Below, piece by piece: positions 32,687-63,943 of a DNA stretch of 64,000 bases. The notes beneath the pieces are model-generated. The model made no database searches. It was not told the origin of the DNA and was given only the letters and a program-made list of their open reading frames with translations. The stretch is from NCBI RefSeq assembly GCF_020532725.1, contig NZ_JAJAVC010000003.1:62001-126000 (forward strand). The letters run 5' to 3'. This DNA comes from Methylobacillus arboreus (GTDB taxonomy: Bacteria > Pseudomonadota > Gammaproteobacteria > Burkholderiales > Methylophilaceae). The number at the start of each line of letters is the position of its first letter. The first letter of the stretch is position 1. The position numbers were made by a program, and so were the translations under genes.

Positions 32687-33035
32687 AGTTGGTTGTTGGT
32701 GGTTGTAGATAGCCGCATTGGTTGTTTATAACCGGAATAAATGTAAATACGGCTGGTTAATTACGGCTCCAAAAGTCTTGATTATTAGTCCATTCGGACT
32801 AATTTTTGCCTATTTTGTTTCACACCTTCCTGCTGAAAATAAGCCATATGTAAATGATTTGTAAATATTTTGTTGCTCCCACTTAATTTCTCCTTCTCGT
32901 TCCGCCTTCATTTTTATTCCTGATTGGGCCTGGATTTTGCAGTAGAGGCTATGTGATGGCTACATTGCGAGCTGTCTCGGGATGCGGCCTCGTTCATAGA
33001 GGCTGAATCATTAATAAACAAAAAGGAGATTGATG
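32687..33035 (+). other. Non-coding region between the receptor and the first PEP-CTERM gene
   Basis: About 350 bases without a gene. It holds nested dyads (AGCCG 32711-32715 with CGGCT 32750-32754, and GGTT-N6-AACC at 32720-32733), a terminator at 32784-32807, then AT-rich DNA that probably contains the PEP-CTERM promoter and an AAGGAG site at 33023-33028. Confidence 0.6.
32784..32807 (+). terminator. Terminator after the TonB-dependent receptor
   Basis: ATTAGTCC pairs with GGACTAAT around ATTC, followed by a T run. Confidence 0.85.
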
Positions 33036-33872
33036 ATGAAATTAAGGTCTATGGCAATTGCTGCCATGCTGGTCACAGCGTCATCGGCATATGCGGGTGA
33101 CTTTGTGACTTTGCGCGATGATTTGGCGAATCTCAATGCGGCAAATGGCGGTTTGATCGTTGGCGCCAATAATCCGTTCAGGGATCCTTTGTATCTGGAT
33201 GCAACTAGCTTTACATGGTTGGATGGCTATAGCAGCCACCCAAGCCAGTTGATTGCCACTTCTATTTCCTATTCGGCAAACTCTGGCAGTGGCGTTCTTA
33301 CTTTGTTGGACTACCGTATCAATACGGGTGTTGAATTGCTGCCAGGCGTGGCCCAGGCAACTGTTTATGACTTTGTGTTCCGTGATAGCAGCGACAACTC
33401 TCTGGTATTCGGTACTCGTTATATCAACCAAATCAACAACAACCAAGAAGTGAACTTCCTCTACCGTTACGGCTTTGAAGGATATGAAACTTCTGCCGCA
33501 TGGTTGTTCCTGTCCGATTATGACTTGCGTTTGTATGAAACGGGGCGCACTGATGACTACTCGTTTAGTTCCACGGTTGCATATGATGCAGATGCAGTAC
33601 GTCAGAAATCTGATATCAGTGTAAGTGAAGGGAATCCATATAGTGGCCTCTTCCTAGTCAAGACCGATGCCACAGATTACGCATTTGGTGACAAGGCAAT
33701 TGGTTATTACCAAGCTGGTGAAGAAGGTCAGGCGGTGGTTGGTGGCTTTATCGGTGGGTTTGTTCCAACAGTGGCTGCAGTGCCTGAACCATCGGAATAT
33801 GCACTGATGCTGCTGGGCCTTGGTGTGGTTGGTTTTGTGGCTTCACGTCGCAAAAAACAGAATCTGGCTTAA
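33036..33872 (+). CDS. PEP-CTERM sorting-domain protein 1
   Basis: An exported protein of 278 residues. The signal peptide ends at SSAYAGDF; the C-terminus has the PEP-CTERM tripartite signal: VPEPSEYAL, a hydrophobic helix, and the basic SRRKK tail. Such proteins are recognised by exosortase, here probably EpsH at 42471. No catalytic domain is visible; the chain lacks cysteine and is rich in Ser, Asn, Tyr and Asp. It shares blocks with the next gene (for example SGLFLVKTDATDY against SGIYFLSVDASQY), so they are paralogues. Three ATGs in a row occur; 33036 has the best spacing to AAGGAG. Confidence 0.85.
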   Translation: MKLRSMAIAAMLVTASSAYAGDFVTLRDDLANLNAANGGLIVGANNPFRDPLYLDATSFTWLDGYSSHPSQLIATSISYSANSGSGVLTLLDYRINTGVELLPGVAQATVYDFVFRDSSDNSLVFGTRYINQINNNQEVNFLYRYGFEGYETSAAWLFLSDYDLRLYETGRTDDYSFSSTVAYDADAVRQKSDISVSEGNPYSGLFLVKTDATDYAFGDKAIGYYQAGEEGQAVVGGFIGGFVPTVAAVPEPSEYALMLLGLGVVGFVASRRKKQNLA

Positions 33873-33991: not shown

Positions 33992-34822
33992 ATGCAACAA
34001 GTATTCAAACAAGCTATTGTTGGTGCTGCACTGACTCTTGTGAGTGTCAGCAGTGTCTATGCTGGTGGTTTTGTCGATGTCCTGAACACAGGTGAACGTA
34101 CTCCAGGCAGCGTCAACAATGTGCTTACTGATCCATTCTTCCTGACCGGCGGTATTCCCTCCGGCTGGGCTCAGCAAGCCTCCATTACTACAGCTGTATA
34201 CTCTCCTATCAACAATAGTATTCAGGTTGGTAACTTTATTGACACTGTATGGATTGATGCAACGACCAACCAACTGATTATCGGCAGTTACTTCCAGTTG
34301 TTGCCTAACTACCCCACAGGCAATATCCATGGCGGTGGCGGTATCTCTGAAATCAACTCCATTGTCCGCACCGGATTCTCTGACGTTGACACTATCTCTG
34401 CCGCTTGGTATTTCGCTGAAGGCATTTATAGTGGCGCTGAAGATGGCTATCGCTTGCGTGACCCATCCCGTTCCGGCTATGTAGCTTCGTATAATGCAAC
34501 AGCTGCAGCTGCGGGCGCTTACTTAGACTTGGATAAGGTAGCGATTCGTACCGATGTCAGCATCGGTGAAAACAACCCCAATTCCGGAATCTATTTCCTG
34601 AGCGTGGATGCATCCCAGTACACCTATGTGTTTGGTAGCAATGCTATTGGTATCATTCAGGGTGCCTCTACCAGCGAAGGTGGCCGCGTAGGCCAAGAAA
34701 TCTGGCTGAGTGGTTTCCGTGTCGCTGCTGTACCTGAGCCATCTGAATATGCGCTGATGTTGATTGGTTTGGGTATGATGGGATTTGTTGCGCGTCGTCG
34801 CAAAAACAAAGACTTGTCATAA
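33992..34822 (+). CDS. PEP-CTERM sorting-domain protein 2
   Basis: An exported protein of 276 residues, paralogous to the preceding one. The signal peptide ends at SSVYAGGF; the C-terminus carries VPEPSEYALMLIG, a hydrophobic segment and ARRRKNK. The sorting signals of the two paralogues are nearly identical while their middles have diverged. No cysteine and no known domain are seen. A structural or matrix role with the exopolysaccharide is an inference from the family. A terminator follows. Confidence 0.85.
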   Translation: MQQVFKQAIVGAALTLVSVSSVYAGGFVDVLNTGERTPGSVNNVLTDPFFLTGGIPSGWAQQASITTAVYSPINNSIQVGNFIDTVWIDATTNQLIIGSYFQLLPNYPTGNIHGGGGISEINSIVRTGFSDVDTISAAWYFAEGIYSGAEDGYRLRDPSRSGYVASYNATAAAAGAYLDLDKVAIRTDVSIGENNPNSGIYFLSVDASQYTYVFGSNAIGIIQGASTSEGGRVGQEIWLSGFRVAAVPEPSEYALMLIGLGMMGFVARRRKNKDLS

Positions 34823-40167: not shown

Positions 40168-41577
40168 ATGAGCTTGTCCCAGTTTCTTCATATTCTCAAA
40201 GCTCGATACAAAATTATTTTGTTGACGATGCTTGTAATTGTCGTTGCCACGTTGGGCATCAGTTTGGTGTTGTCTAAAACATATAAGGCGACCAACACGG
40301 TAATTATTAATTACAAAGGGGTTGATCCGGTAACTGGTCTTGCATCGCCAGCCCAATTGTTGCCGGGATATATGGCCACCCAAGTCGATATTATCTCCAG
40401 TAAACACGTTGCACTTAAAGTGATTGATCAACTTAAATTGGCTGATAGTGAAGGTGTTAAAGCTAGTTTTGAAGAAGACGGCGGGGAGGGGGATATCAAC
40501 AACTGGCTAGCCAAATTACTGCTGAAGAATCTAGATGTCAGCCCATCTAGAACAAGTAGTACCATTGATATCAATTTTAAAGGCTCCAATCCTCAGTTTG
40601 CTGCAGTCATGGCAAATGCTTTTGCTGCAGAATACATTCGTACCAATATTCAATTAAAAGTGGAGCCATCACGTCAGGCTTCTGAGTATTTTACTCAGCA
40701 GGTTAGAGGCCTTAAAGATGACTTGAATAATGCCCAACTTCGTCTTTCACAATACCAGCAAGAGAAAGGTATTATCAGTGTAGATGAGCGTCTTGATGTA
40801 GAGCGCGCGAGGCTTAATGAATTATCTTCGCAACTCGTTATTGCTCAGGCACAAACTATGGAAGCACAATCTCGGCAAAGGAATTCTTCAGGGAGTAATG
40901 CATTTGACTCTCCTGATATTGCAGCTAATCCCCTTATTCAGGGTCTGAAAACTGATATAGCGCGAGCAGAATCCAGGTTTGCCGATGTCAGTCAAAAAGT
41001 TGATCGGAATCATCCTTCATATTTAGGAGCCAAGGCAGAAATTGACAACCTTAAGCAGGAGTTAAATAAGCAAATCCAGGCAGCATCGGTAAATGTAGCC
41101 AGCAATTATCGTATCTTGAAACAGCGTGAAGATGAAATTCGTGCTGCCTTGAATAATCAGCGTGCAAAAGTCTTGGAGCTCAATAAAGATAGAGATGCAT
41201 TGACTGTGCTGACGCGTGAAGTTGAAAACGCTCAGAATGCATACCAACTTATTACACAGAGATATACACAAACTAATGTTGAAGGACACTCCAACCAGTC
41301 AGATATTTCTGTTCTTAACCCAGCGACACCGCCTGTGGAGCCTGACTCTCCAAAGTTACTTCTTAATACTGTGATTGCTATTTTTTTAGGAGGCCTGCTT
41401 GGATTAGGTCTGGGCATACTGGTAGAAGTCCTCGATAGAAGGGTTCGTTCGGCAGAGGATTTAAGAGTACTTTTGGATGCGCCTGTGCTTGGTGTGTTTC
41501 CTAAAGATGGCTCAAAGCAAAAATTTGCGCGCTCACTTGGCAATAAGTCATCGCAACTGAGAATATCGAAAGTTTAA
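40168..41577 (+). CDS. epsF: Chain-length determinant protein EpsF (Wzz/Wzc-like)
   Basis: A 469-residue inner-membrane protein with two helices (about residues 17-37 and 400-422) flanking a periplasmic coiled-coil of about 200 residues (from LKDDLNNAQLRLSQYQQEKG to NQRAKVLELNKDRDAL). The Wzz domain at the start and the GNVR-like region before the second helix (PPVEPDSPKLLLN) are visible. The kinase domain is a separate gene, epsG. It sets polymer length and links synthesis to export. Confidence 0.92.
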   Translation: MSLSQFLHILKARYKIILLTMLVIVVATLGISLVLSKTYKATNTVIINYKGVDPVTGLASPAQLLPGYMATQVDIISSKHVALKVIDQLKLADSEGVKASFEEDGGEGDINNWLAKLLLKNLDVSPSRTSSTIDINFKGSNPQFAAVMANAFAAEYIRTNIQLKVEPSRQASEYFTQQVRGLKDDLNNAQLRLSQYQQEKGIISVDERLDVERARLNELSSQLVIAQAQTMEAQSRQRNSSGSNAFDSPDIAANPLIQGLKTDIARAESRFADVSQKVDRNHPSYLGAKAEIDNLKQELNKQIQAASVNVASNYRILKQREDEIRAALNNQRAKVLELNKDRDALTVLTREVENAQNAYQLITQRYTQTNVEGHSNQSDISVLNPATPPVEPDSPKLLLNTVIAIFLGGLLGLGLGILVEVLDRRVRSAEDLRVLLDAPVLGVFPKDGSKQKFARSLGNKSSQLRISKV

Positions 41578-41579
41578 TT

Positions 41580-42470
41580 ATGAGTTCGACACAACATTCA
41601 GTAGCTTCAACAGATAAGCAATTAGCTGTGGATCCATTCTCCGAGTTTAATATCGGTAGCCTACTACTACGCATGGGCAAAATTAGCCCTGAAGATGCAG
41701 AAAAAATAATGAAGCTGCATAAAGATCAAGGCATGCGCTTTGGTGAGGCTGCAAAAAGCTTGGGCTTGATTACAGAAGGCGATATCCAGCAAGTTTTGGC
41801 TAGGCAGTTCGACTATCCATACCTGATTCAGGAAAGTAATAGCAAGCACGCAAAAGAGCTTGTTTCCGCATACCAGCCATTTAGCAAAAAGTCCGAAGTG
41901 TTTCGTGCGGTGAGAAGTCAGTTAATGCTTCATTGGTTTTCTCCCGAACGTAAAGCTTTGAGCTTTTCCTCCATGAATGCTGGGGAAGGTGTCAGCTACT
42001 TTGTGTCAAATCTGGCCATTGTTTTTGCACAGCTAGGTGAAAATACACTCTTGATCGATGCTAATCTGCGTTCGCCACGTCAGCATGACATTTTTGAGCT
42101 GGAAGAAAGAAAAGGTCTTTCAGACATTTTGGCTGGCCGGGCCGGACAAGAGGTCATTTCTAAGGTGGGTGTATTTGAAAGCCTATCCGTATTGCCTGCC
42201 GGTACATTGCCACCAAATCCACAAGAGCTTGTTTCCAGGCCTTCATTCAGAAAGCTGATTTACGATTTATCCAATCAGTATGATGTGATTCTGCTGGATA
42301 CTCCGGCCTTCTCTTATGGCGCAGATGTCCAAGCCATCTCCACTGCAACCAATGGTCTGGTCATGGTTATCAAAAACCATGAGGCCAGAATGAACGATAT
42401 TTCCGCAGCGGCAGAAAGCCTGGCAAATAATGGGACCCACATTGTCGGATCTGTGCTTGTAGAGTTTTAA
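41580..42470 (+). CDS. epsG: EpsG-type BY-kinase-like protein with altered P-loop
   Basis: A 296-residue cytosolic partner of EpsF. The N-terminal part (about residues 27-82) looks like the GspE/MshE N-terminal domain, as usual in EpsG. The ATPase half has Walker A' as LLIDANLRSP (about 157-166) and Walker B as VILLDTPAF (about 235-243). The P-loop reads NAGEGVSYFVSN: the Lys that binds phosphate (Arg in some EpsG) is Val at 138. No tyrosine-rich tail is present (ends GSVLVEF). It may therefore be catalytically weak or a regulatory pseudo-kinase. Confidence 0.85.
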   Translation: MSSTQHSVASTDKQLAVDPFSEFNIGSLLLRMGKISPEDAEKIMKLHKDQGMRFGEAAKSLGLITEGDIQQVLARQFDYPYLIQESNSKHAKELVSAYQPFSKKSEVFRAVRSQLMLHWFSPERKALSFSSMNAGEGVSYFVSNLAIVFAQLGENTLLIDANLRSPRQHDIFELEERKGLSDILAGRAGQEVISKVGVFESLSVLPAGTLPPNPQELVSRPSFRKLIYDLSNQYDVILLDTPAFSYGADVQAISTATNGLVMVIKNHEARMNDISAAAESLANNGTHIVGSVLVEF

Positions 42471-43358
42471 ATGTTCAAAAATACTAGCTTAGTAGATGGA
42501 CTGAAAGCGCATTGGTTGTTGTGGGTGGGCATACTGGTTCTGTATGTCCCTACCTTCATAAATCTTGTGACTACAGTATGGACCAGTGAAGATCAGGCCC
42601 ATGGCCCGCTGATATTATTGGTGGTCGGCTATCTGGTCTGGACGCAAAAAGAGTTTATTTTCAGCAAAGAAAGCAGAAAGACCTCTCCTGTCCTTGGCTG
42701 GTTGCTTATTGCCATCGGCTTATGTGCCTATATCCTAGGGCGTTCTCAAGATATCGTCATTCTGGATCTGGGGTCGCAGATTCCCATTATTATCGGGCTG
42801 TTACTCATCTACTTTGGCTATAAAGGGGTCAGGACGTTCTGGTTTCCGATATTCTTCCTTATCTTCATGATCCCCTTGCCAGGGGTATTGGTGGATGCAG
42901 TGACACTGCCCATGAAAATAGCCGTGTCCTATGTTGCTGAGGATATTCTGTATTTCTTTAATTATCCTATCTCGAGAACGGGTGTCATATTGCAGATTGG
43001 CCAGTATCAACTACTGGTTGCGGATGCTTGTGCCGGTTTGCATACGCTGATTTCCCTCGAGGCCCTGGGCTTGCTCTACTTGAATATCGTCAAGCATGAT
43101 TCATTGTTGAGAAATATAGCTCTCGCTACCTTGATTATCCCGATTTCATTTACTGCGAATGTCATCCGCGTCATTGTACTGACGCTGGTTACCTACTATT
43201 TTGGCGATGCGGTCGGGCAAGGTTTTGTCCATGGTTTTGCCGGGATATTGCTGTTCGTAGTGGCGTTGACCTTGATTATTTCTGTTGACTCTTTGTTGCA
43301 GTTTTTTGTAGCACGACGCATTAAGAATAAGCATGGTGCTGATTTACAAAGAGGATAA
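42471..43358 (+). CDS. epsH: Exosortase B
   Basis: A 295-residue inner-membrane transpeptidase-like enzyme with about eight helices. The catalytic triad expected for exosortases is present: Cys187 in ADACAGLHTL, Arg233 in ANVIRVIVL and His254 in FVHGFAGIL. The position between epsG and epsI matches XrtB (EpsH) loci. It is thought to cut PEP-CTERM proteins near the PEP motif and attach them to the envelope. The ATG follows the epsG stop directly. Confidence 0.93.
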   Translation: MFKNTSLVDGLKAHWLLWVGILVLYVPTFINLVTTVWTSEDQAHGPLILLVVGYLVWTQKEFIFSKESRKTSPVLGWLLIAIGLCAYILGRSQDIVILDLGSQIPIIIGLLLIYFGYKGVRTFWFPIFFLIFMIPLPGVLVDAVTLPMKIAVSYVAEDILYFFNYPISRTGVILQIGQYQLLVADACAGLHTLISLEALGLLYLNIVKHDSLLRNIALATLIIPISFTANVIRVIVLTLVTYYFGDAVGQGFVHGFAGILLFVVALTLIISVDSLLQFFVARRIKNKHGADLQRG

Positions 43359-60054: not shown

Positions 60055-60239
60055 TTTTTAGGCCTTCAAGTTTTTACGGAACGTGCCGTTAGTTTATTTT
60101 AGTGTAGGATAGTTTGAAAACTGTCTTAATAGCAGTTATGGTCAAATATATACCCATTTTGAATGTTATTTGCAATCATGTACCAATGAATTGTTCAGGT
60201 TTATGCCAGGTGAAAAGTTTGCTTTTTTGGAGAGAGGTT

Positions 60240-61781
60240 ATGAAAAAAATCCTTTTTTTACTTATGGTTACGGGATATTTTCAAAGCTGGGGTTTTGCTA
60301 ATGAGGTTTATAAAACAGTAAATCCTGACGGTGCGATCACGTATTCTGATTCTCCATCCGCTACTTCTAAAGCTATAAAAGTATATCCTGGAAAAGTAGG
60401 TGCAAGCCGAGCAGGCAGTGCAAAAACTGTTGATGTTCCAACATCTTCAAATGAAATTCTGTCTGGCGGACAGGCAAACACTAATGACCAACCATCAAAT
60501 AAACCTGCTTTGATGAATAAGTCAAGTGGCAGCAATGCAAGCAAAACAACTGTTTCTGGCGGTAGCGGAGGGGCAGCCAGTTCTGGCAGTACAGGTGGTG
60601 GCTCATCTTCGTCGAGTGGAAAAACCACAATAGCGCCCCAAGCTACCACAGGCAACCAAGCTACCACAGGCAACCAAGCTACCACAGGCAACCAAGCTAC
60701 CACAGGCAACCAAGCTACCACAGGCAACCAAGCTACCACAGGCGGGACAGAATTGATTAAAGGTGATGGCTACCCCCCCCTTAGTTGCCAAAATAAGCTG
60801 ATCTGGGAGCGATGGGAGTCTGCAGCTTATCAGGGAGCAAATGTTTTGAATCAGATAACTTCTAAAGATTGGGAGATATTGGCTAGTGATTGGCATGTTA
60901 ATGTTGTGAGGCTGCAAATTATCTTGACAGATACCAATTTAAGACTAATTGCCAATGGGGGATTAGATGCGCTGCCTCAATTCAAAAATCGAGTGCAACA
61001 GTTTATGCAAAATTCGATACAGCATAATGTTGACGTAGTTTTAGATTTACATAGAGCTGAGGGAGGGGCAGGTCAGACTGGAGTATTATGGGGCTCACCT
61101 CAGTTAAAAGAAAACTACAAGCGTGTGATACTTGCTTTTGTCAAGGAAATGCAGAATTACCCTAACGTTGCCGGCATCGATATTTTAAATGAACCAACTC
61201 CGAGAAGTGTTTATACCAAAACGTGGAGTCAGCGTAAGGGAACGGCTGATGATTGGATGGTGCTGGCTAAGGAAGTTATTGGTGAAATAAGAAAGCTGGA
61301 TGCTTGTATGCCCATTATTGTAGAGCCGGTGGACTGGGCTAAACCATTTAGGTTTTCTGAAATGGAAGTGTTTGATGATCCATTCATTGTTTACAGCCCT
61401 CATCTATATGCGCCATTTGAAGTGACTCATCAAGGCATTAACCAGTATCCTAAGGGAACTACTTTACTTCAATATAATATGGGAACTCCCTCTGCATTGA
61501 TCGAATATATAAAGAAAAATGTCAATGAAGCTAGAAAGTTTCAATGTAAATATGATAAGCCAATTTACGTTGGGGAGTTTGGGATAAATTATCATGCAAA
61601 TAGTAGTGATAGGGATATGTATATCAATGCACTGACTACTGTTTTTGAGGGGTATGGTTGGTCTTGGACATATCATGCTTATAAGATATGGGATGGTTGG
61701 ATGCCAACGGCTACAAGTTTGACAAAAATGCAAAATACTAAGTTGTCAAGAAGTGCTGTGGCAAAAGTAAGTTGTGATTGA
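60240..61781 (+). CDS. Secreted GH5-type glycoside hydrolase with DUF4124 N-terminus
   Basis: A 513-residue exported enzyme. Signal peptide ends near WGFANEV (residue 21); residues 21-60 look like DUF4124 (VYKTVNPDGAITYSDSP). A Ser/Gly/Thr-rich linker and six QATTGN units (residues 134-169) lead to a catalytic domain from about 180. It has the GH5 marks: acid/base Glu318 in DILNEPTP and nucleophile Glu446 in YVGEFGIN. It probably cuts a beta-glucan-like EPS, possibly the product of this locus. The ATG at 60240 follows GGAGAGAGG. The gene is AT-richer than rfb and most of galE. Confidence 0.88.
   Translation: MKKILFLLMVTGYFQSWGFANEVYKTVNPDGAITYSDSPSATSKAIKVYPGKVGASRAGSAKTVDVPTSSNEILSGGQANTNDQPSNKPALMNKSSGSNASKTTVSGGSGGAASSGSTGGGSSSSSGKTTIAPQATTGNQATTGNQATTGNQATTGNQATTGNQATTGGTELIKGDGYPPLSCQNKLIWERWESAAYQGANVLNQITSKDWEILASDWHVNVVRLQIILTDTNLRLIANGGLDALPQFKNRVQQFMQNSIQHNVDVVLDLHRAEGGAGQTGVLWGSPQLKENYKRVILAFVKEMQNYPNVAGIDILNEPTPRSVYTKTWSQRKGTADDWMVLAKEVIGEIRKLDACMPIIVEPVDWAKPFRFSEMEVFDDPFIVYSPHLYAPFEVTHQGINQYPKGTTLLQYNMGTPSALIEYIKKNVNEARKFQCKYDKPIYVGEFGINYHANSSDRDMYINALTTVFEGYGWSWTYHAYKIWDGWMPTATSLTKMQNTKLSRSAVAKVSCD
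60639..60746 (+). repeat. Six 18-bp tandem repeats in the GH5 linker
   Basis: CAAGCTACCACAGGCAAC is repeated five times without change and a sixth time with two changes at the end (GG for AA), coding for QATTGN units. Identity at the base level means recent expansion, so the copy number probably varies between strains. Confidence 0.95.
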
Positions 61782-63012: not shown

Positions 63013-63489
63013 ATGAAAAACCAAGTGATGTCGTGGTTTGTGGGTGCGCTGTTGCTAGTCATTGCGACAGTTGCCAGTGCAGCTACGAAGGTGGATGAGG
63101 TCGGCTATCTATACGCTGACCCTAGTTTGCCTAGTGAAGCTGTATTTTCTTACAGTCTTGATGCAGGTGTTTATGAGTTGTCGCTGCTTGATTATGAGTT
63201 TCCTGCCGCATTTTTACCTGGAAGCTTTGGTATCGAGATATACACGGGTGGCTCACTTGTCAGCACATTGTATGGTTCCGGCACTTTCCTGTTGCCGGAG
63301 CTGACTGCTGGTTCTTATCTGTTTAGTGTGTTTGGTGATGCCAATAACGATTTTGGGTTCGGCGTTTTTGGTTTTACGGTTTCCCCTGTGCCTGAAGCGG
63401 ATACCTGGGCGTTGCTGGCTGTAGGCATCGGTTTGTTGGTTGCTTACACTTCACGTCGCAAAACACCTTTGATTGCTGATAAAACATAA
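63013..63489 (+). CDS. Small PEP-CTERM-type protein (PEA variant)
   Basis: A 158-residue exported protein. The signal peptide ends at ATVASAATK; the C-terminus has VPEADTWALLAVGIG, a hydrophobic helix and TSRRKT, a common exosortase signal variant with PEA in place of PEP. The middle is beta-rich with Gly, Ser and aromatic residues. It forms a pair with the next gene, and neither resembles the long PEP-CTERM pair at 33036-34822. Likely a cell-surface or matrix protein; function unknown. Confidence 0.75.
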   Translation: MKNQVMSWFVGALLLVIATVASAATKVDEVGYLYADPSLPSEAVFSYSLDAGVYELSLLDYEFPAAFLPGSFGIEIYTGGSLVSTLYGSGTFLLPELTAGSYLFSVFGDANNDFGFGVFGFTVSPVPEADTWALLAVGIGLLVAYTSRRKTPLIADKT

Positions 63490-63499
63490 GGATCAGATC

Positions 63500-63943
63500 A
63501 TGAAAAAATTGCTCAATATGATGAAATGGTTGGCTGTGGCAGTCGTATTCTCGGGCAGCTTAAGTGCTCATGCTACACCTGTGTTTGAGCTGGATGCAGC
63601 GACTACGATTCCTGGCGGATATAAATACAATGTGGCCTTGCTGGCTGGCGAGTATTCCTTGACGCTTGAGGATGTTGACAGCAGCTTTTCCTTCCTGGGC
63701 ATTACCTTGGGTCAAGGGGCAACCCAGCTGGGTTCATTGAGTTTGCTGGGACCTGTGGATCAAGGTACTTTGAACTTCTCCATTTTGACAACTGGCATCT
63801 ACACTGCAGTGCTTTATGCGCAGGGTGGAATTGGCCCGGTAAACTTGGTCATCAGCAGCGTACCTGAGCCTGAAACGGCAGCTATGCTGATGGCCGGATT
63901 GGGTTTGATTGCCTTCAGGATACGGCGCAAGCGCAAGGCATGA
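63500..63943 (+). CDS. Small PEP-CTERM-type protein
   Basis: A 147-residue exported protein with a signal peptide ending at SAHATPVF and a C-terminal VPEPETAAMLMAGLGLIAF followed by RIRRKRK. The middle shows the same layout as the preceding protein (YSLTLEDVDSSFSFLG against YELSLLDYEFPAAFLPG), so they are paralogues. The ATG at 63500 fits the signal peptide and lies 10 bases after the previous stop. A perfect terminator follows. Confidence 0.82.
   Translation: MKKLLNMMKWLAVAVVFSGSLSAHATPVFELDAATTIPGGYKYNVALLAGEYSLTLEDVDSSFSFLGITLGQGATQLGSLSLLGPVDQGTLNFSILTTGIYTAVLYAQGGIGPVNLVISSVPEPETAAMLMAGLGLIAFRIRRKRKA

Follow-up and report, generated by a model that had tools for sequence, protein, structure and literature searches.

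The window, by which we mean the entire 64,000-nucleotide stretch of Methylobacillus arboreus DNA analysed here, carries an eps cluster in which EpsL, EpsD, EpsE, EpsF, exosortase B (XrtB) and EpsI accompany EpsG. The epsG gene (41580-42470, plus strand) encodes a protein of 296 amino acids, a predicted BY pseudokinase-like partner of EpsF, which scores 343.2 bits (cut-off 313.8) against TIGR03029, a model with the curated name 'chain length determinant protein tyrosine kinase EpsG'. Among proteins with the BY-kinase fold, profile and sequence searches identified CapB, Wzc and VpsO as its relatives. Immediately upstream, epsF (40168-41577, plus strand) encodes a co-polymerase of 469 amino acids with Wzz and GNVR parts (TIGR03017, 649 bits; PF02706 and PF13807), and the profile search of this protein gave no match to a kinase domain. 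The downstream neighbor, epsH (42471-43358, plus strand), encodes XrtB (TIGR03113, 415.6 bits, cut-off 275). Among the listed ORFs, the start of epsI overlaps the end of epsH/xrtB by 26 bases (43333-43358), which suggests coupled translation.

Two adjacent ORFs just upstream of the eps cluster (33030-33872 and 33992-34822) have similar PEP-CTERM ends, VPEPSEYALMLLGLGVVGFVASRRK and VPEPSEYALMLIGLGMMGFVARRRK; the second of these ORFs matches PEP-CTERM models, and both likely encode exosortase substrates. On the far side of the cluster, PEP-CTERM-like ends were recognized by eye in two small adjacent ORFs (63013-63489 and 63473-63943). The window also contains a perfect 18-base tandem repeat (60638-60743; 5.9 copies, 100% matches), lying in frame within the ORF at 60114-61781, the product of which combines ATTGNQ repeats with a C-terminal part that appears glycosidase-like by eye; the number of repeat copies may differ between strains.

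Catalytic sites of EpsG and its relatives

EpsG begins with an MshEN-type domain (residues 24-82; 41649-41825; NF053729, 40.4 bits, cut-off 38), followed by the motif EVFRAVR (residues 106-112; 41895-41915), which conforms to EX2RX2R, the oligomerization motif of BY-kinases. Further features are encoded downstream, on the same plus strand: a degenerate P-loop, NAGEGVSY (residues 133-140; 41976-41999); the A' motif, LLIDANLR (residues 157-164; 42048-42071), where D160-A161-N162 has Asn162 in place of Asp; the Walker B motif, VILLDTP (residues 236-242; 42285-42305), with Asp240 kept; and the C-terminus, SVLVEF plus the stop codon (42450-42470), which lacks a tyrosine tail. The preliminary description of this locus reported Val at codon 138 (GTC, 41991-41993) where BY-kinases have Lys, no terminal tyrosine cluster, and an intact gene between epsF and epsH. 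All three observations stand: translation and alignments to solved BY-kinases place Val138 in the column of the P-loop Lys of the CapB chains 4jlv, 3bfv and 4jmp; the last tyrosine is Y246, and the protein ends with HIVGSVLVEF; and both the frame and the two neighbors were recovered. Another aligned chain, 2ved, has Met in this column, which we take to be the deliberate K55M mutation. Thus, EpsG of the window lacks the P-loop lysine, the A' DxD and the C-terminal tyrosine cluster of active BY-kinases. The pocket keeps G135, G137, S139, D160 and D240, so that a nucleotide could still bind.

To place these losses in the family, genomes from the same family (187), class (369) and order (399; overlapping sets) were searched for EpsG, and 176 members, including that of the window, were aligned. 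These represent a part of the TIGR03029 matches, some weaker ones being left out, along with L001 and L037 (the window's own copy), L063 (a chance match without EpsG), and L051 and L101 (shortened frames). Nine BY-kinases (L053-L061) served as the outgroup, outside the count of 176; seven more divergent EpsG proteins (L190-L196) were read separately and enter no other count, and L197-L201 enter none.

This alignment, which the preliminary description had called for, shows Lys at the site in 15 members only, along with Arg in 48, Ala in 41, Cys in 22, Val in 17, Ser in 15, Thr in 11, Gly in 5, and Leu and Ile in one each. The earlier expectation that EpsG proteins tend to have Arg needs correction: it applies to these 48 of 176, and to none of the 92 members of the window's own clade. 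The DAN motif was correctly read in the window, but it is the most frequent form among EpsG proteins rather than a departure from it, with the second A' position occupied by Asn in 106 members, Asp in 67 and other residues in 3. A tyrosine tail was found in none of the 176 proteins: from position 291 on, each has 4 to 10 residues, including no more than one Tyr, and the last 40 residues contain a maximum of 2. All three residues of EX2RX2R are present in 173 of the 176 members, and D240 in 162. Judged by these counts, the loss of Lys, the A' Asn and the absence of the tail are the usual state of the EpsG family. The seven divergent proteins have Lys (4) or Arg (3) at the site and no tyrosine cluster in their visible tails (L192 is truncated where its contig stops, and for L196 the visible tail is partial). 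Given these Lys and Arg residues, together with the 15 and 48 among the 176, a part of the EpsG family may be active ATPases. Four genus mates, L083, L095, L087 and L080, show further P-loop changes, for example to SSSDNASS in the first and to YDKDDTSD in the second; the A' motif deviates as well in L095 (DAHLD), so that the pocket drifts even inside one genus.

The same features were detected in kinases that are expected to have them. CapB and Wzc (4jlv, 3bfv, 3la6 and 7nhr) share the fold and EX2RX2R with EpsG, with E-values down to 1.3e-56 for the family profile, but differ in having the Tyr-rich tail of such BY-kinases and, except in mutant chains, the P-loop Lys. In the outgroup, Lys is present in 8 of 9 proteins, and 7 of 9 have 4 to 9 Tyr within the last 40 residues. 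The XrtA-associated tyrosine autokinases (TIGR03018), stand-alone proteins like EpsG from a sister type of exosortase-linked cluster, were matched in 86 of 300 genomes, and the 30 best-scoring loci, from the same order, were taken as the control, a choice by score that favors typical members. Unlike EpsG, all 30 have GKS or GKT (26 by pattern, 4 by eye) and at least three Tyr in the last 45 residues; hence the method detects the lysine and the tail where they are present.

In a quick maximum-likelihood tree built with the P-loop columns removed, EpsG of the window falls in a clade of 92 (SH-aLRT 82, not starred), none of which has Lys or Arg at site 138; the 84 rows outside the clade have Arg (48), Lys (15) or other residues (21). 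The root is weak (24), so that the direction from Lys through Arg to neutral residues rests on the Lys-bearing outgroup. The tree requires 8 changes between Lys and not-Lys, and 48 for the residue itself. D162 accompanies a basic residue at 138 in 56 of 63 rows and a neutral one in 11 of 113; with 1 pair on starred branches and 7 on all branches, an independent-pairs test for coevolution in the loss of K/R138 and D162 did not reach significance, and we do not claim a coupling because the independent changes are too few.

Proposed role of EpsG beside EpsF

The loss of kinase features in most relatives suggests that chain length is controlled without phosphorylation. We propose, with a probability of roughly three in four, that the EpsG proteins encoded in XrtB/PEP-CTERM exopolysaccharide clusters are BY pseudokinases, non-catalytic partners of EpsF in chain length control that dispenses with tyrosine phosphorylation. 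Speaking for this reading are the spread of the sequence losses, the invariance of R109, R112, N144 and D160 within the clade of 92 (with E106 in 91), the linkage to EpsF, the low dN/dS of close relatives and the lack of any further BY-kinase above the cut-off in the genome. From their sequences, the window's EpsG and most of its relatives are very probably unable to act as tyrosine kinases. The idea of a pseudokinase that works by binding only, voiced in the preliminary description, is also our best reading of the evidence; what has to be revised is its attachment to this particular gene, the losses being the norm of the family. Under the proposed mechanism, EpsG would keep the BY-kinase fold, as predicted from sequence, and the ring-forming motif, but with neither the catalytic lysine nor the second Asp of A' nor a tail that can be phosphorylated. 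It would most likely serve, by analogy with EcpK/EpsV and HfsB/HfsA, as a cytoplasmic subunit bound directly to the cytoplasmic end of EpsF, and would steady or cycle the EpsF oligomer through EX2RX2R, with no phosphotransfer, so that chain length would be set without tyrosine phosphorylation. The MshEN-type domain is a natural candidate for the missing input, perhaps through signal sensing. A structure model from two sequences reached a pLDDT of 38.9, which was too low, and was kept out of the fold searches.

Among clade loci with enough flank, EpsF is encoded directly upstream of EpsG in 89 of 91. Outside the clade, the arrangement is less regular (36 of 43 loci with Arg, 8 of 15 with Lys and 13 of 19 with other neutral residues, again with enough flank), which we count against the pseudokinase reading, as we do the fact that some kinases of other folds remain active without their catalytic Lys. 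XrtB follows immediately downstream in 2 of 15 Lys loci, 25 of 48 Arg loci, 16 of 21 other neutral loci outside the clade and 69 of 89 loci of the window's clade, a pattern that is only a hint, with flanks of 0.6-3.5 kb and the next gene alone examined. Downstream of EpsG in the Lys-bearing L173, L177 and L182, we found by eye a polymerase-like membrane protein and no exosortase, which hints that Lys persists where the cluster is not linked to XrtB.

Proteins of this kind have been described in two other systems. EcpK of Myxococcus xanthus, the partner of EpsV, is, like EpsG, a stand-alone BY-kinase fold beside a kinase-less co-polymerase, lacks the Tyr tail and catalytic residues, and has been proposed to act as a scaffold, according to PMC12004946. 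The same paper describes EcpK as devoid of all three Walker motifs, whereas EpsG retains D160 of A' and D240 of Walker B; furthermore, EpsG has the additional N-terminal MshEN-type domain, and neither EpsG nor MshEN nor c-di-GMP is mentioned there. HfsB of Caulobacter crescentus is also presented in the portion available of PMC12004946 as a stand-alone pseudokinase without catalytic residues or a Tyr tail, needed together with its co-polymerase HfsA, but it belongs to a holdfast system, and no MshEN-type domain is mentioned for it in that portion. EpsG resembles both pairs in combining a BY-kinase fold, judged by sequence, stripped of catalytic residues (D160 and D240 excepted) and tail with a linked co-polymerase, EpsF, that has no kinase domain. 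Cycling of a co-polymerase by a BY pseudokinase without phosphorylation appears in the accessible part of PMC12004946 as speculation only.

The gene name epsG is used for other things as well: in Herbaspirillum, it denotes a glucosyltransferase gene in the available text of PMC4195743. In the openly licensed literature, to the extent that its text was accessible, we found neither an account of EpsG as a pseudokinase nor one of a BY pseudokinase controlled by c-di-GMP. Part of the EpsG finding may be covered by a survey by Cuthbertson et al., which PMC12004946 cites for such variants.

The N-terminal MshEN-type domain

The MshEN fold is a known binder of c-di-GMP, and the MshEN-type domain of EpsG, overlooked in the preliminary description, offers a possible mode of control in place of phosphorylation. 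As in MshE, PilB and PilF, the domain appears to consist of tandem 24-residue motifs (residues 24-47 and 53-76) with a 5-residue spacer, and the family profile matches the solved structures of MshE (5htl) and PilF (6f8l); the domain of EpsG differs from these in being fused to a pseudokinase and in family-wide deviations from the motif. One could thus extend the pseudokinase reading by supposing that bound c-di-GMP, replacing phosphorylation, switches the EpsF-EpsG oligomer between states. We regard this extension as a serious possibility that falls somewhat short of even odds.

NF053729, a MshE-related c-di-GMP model, matches 59 of 60 sampled members (the window plus every third other EpsG) at E<=0.001, and G26, L29, F54, G55 and Q76 are invariant in all 176. 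The genome of the window contains 28 GGDEF matches and just two MshEN-type matches, one of which is EpsG. In the text available from PMC5013675, Methylobacillus exopolysaccharide biosynthesis is named among MshEN proteins, and the protein meant there is probably EpsG. These observations favor gating by c-di-GMP, but only 12 of the 22 published motif positions are fitted in EpsG of the window. Across the family, 22 of 176 members retain the initial Arg of motif 1; position 11 of motif 1 is Lys or Arg in place of a hydrophobic residue in 160; and motif 2 has, in all 176, Phe for Leu and Ala, Gly or Cys at position 6. In our alignment, position 11 corresponds to I19R of XpsE, one of the changes listed for this non-binder in the accessible part of PMC5013675. 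Nevertheless, known binders tolerate substitutions at the first position: as given in the available sections of PMC11731258, Lys and Leu replace the first-position Arg in GSPII-B, which binds c-di-GMP at 6 nM, and Pro replaces it in motif II of GSPII-C, another binder. Lys also occupies position 11 in two motifs of GSPII-C, as read from the alignment. The PilF domain GSPII-A, for which the same sections report no c-di-GMP binding as opposed to GSPII-C, is matched by the window's domain alone (15.5 bits) as well as GSPII-C is (15.7 bits). Binding of c-di-GMP by EpsG is plausible from its sequence; given the family-wide deviations of the motif, we hold back from a firm claim. Control of EpsG through this domain would fit the proposed role.

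Remaining alternatives and implications

EpsG might also bind ATP by means of the P-loop and Asp residues that it retains, with neither hydrolysis nor transfer, such that occupancy gates assembly. Within the clade of 92, D160 is invariant, D240 (88 of 92) and N162 (84) nearly so, and the P-loop residues G137 and S139 are found in 81 and 78 members, which points to a maintained pocket; with Asn162 itself conserved, this pocket appears re-tuned, not rotten. However, site 138 varies rather freely in the clade (entropy rank 143 of 196), G135 is present in only 48 of 92 members, and the usual glycines are missing from L083 and L095, which belong to the same genus as the window. We consider gating by bound ATP unlikely; the residues lost suggest instead that EpsG neither binds ATP nor takes part in phosphorylation.

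Still far less probable is an active tyrosine kinase that would act on EpsF or another protein by an unusual route. The first A' Asp and the Walker B Asp are kept, and Lys persists in a part of the family, but such a kinase is hard to reconcile with a family devoid of Tyr tails, a clade devoid of Lys, and a genome in which no PF01451-type phosphatase lies outside an arsenic context (PHP-type enzymes being outside the search). The single PF01451 (low-molecular-weight phosphatase type) match in the genome lies between ArsR-like and Acr3-like frames, identified by eye, and is thus most likely an arsenate reductase; a Wzb-type phosphatase was rejected on account of this context. A BY-kinase acting in trans was likewise rejected: EpsG is the sole protein in the genome over the TIGR01007 cut-off, and no XrtA kinase was found at E<=1e-40. 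Thus, searches for BY-kinases, XrtA kinases and PF01451, which did not extend to PHP-type phosphatases, found no phosphorylation cycle for EpsF in this genome. Decay of the gene or a sequencing error in this strain, which the non-conservative change from Lys to Val138 might suggest, can be dismissed, the frame being intact, the 91 other clade members likewise having neither Lys nor Arg, and dN/dS being low among close relatives (median 0.068, maximum 0.45, in 27 non-independent pairs within the clade; synonymous sites are saturated for the window's epsG, so its own value is not measurable); the family pattern rules out a strain peculiarity, pseudogene or error.

The family pattern speaks against calling TIGR03029 a 'tyrosine kinase', a label that is misleading. 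BY pseudokinases are known from few cases, and the EpsG family would add numerous natural cases that carry an evident candidate for the input domain. Because Lys, Arg and neutral states stand side by side in the EpsG tree, the passage from a catalytic to a binding-only protein can be studied there. According to the available text of PMC12802240, post-translational control by c-di-GMP is typical of synthase-dependent pathways, and the control of Wzx/Wzy pathways is incompletely understood. Pseudokinases of this kind are already known from EcpK and HfsB; what is new and testable is the possible gating of a BY pseudokinase by a second messenger. Tentatively, TIGR03029 may in large part consist of such c-di-GMP-gated BY pseudokinases, in which a messenger domain fused to a dead kinase would replace the phosphorylation cycle by which the co-polymerase ring opens and closes, in XrtB/PEP-CTERM systems.
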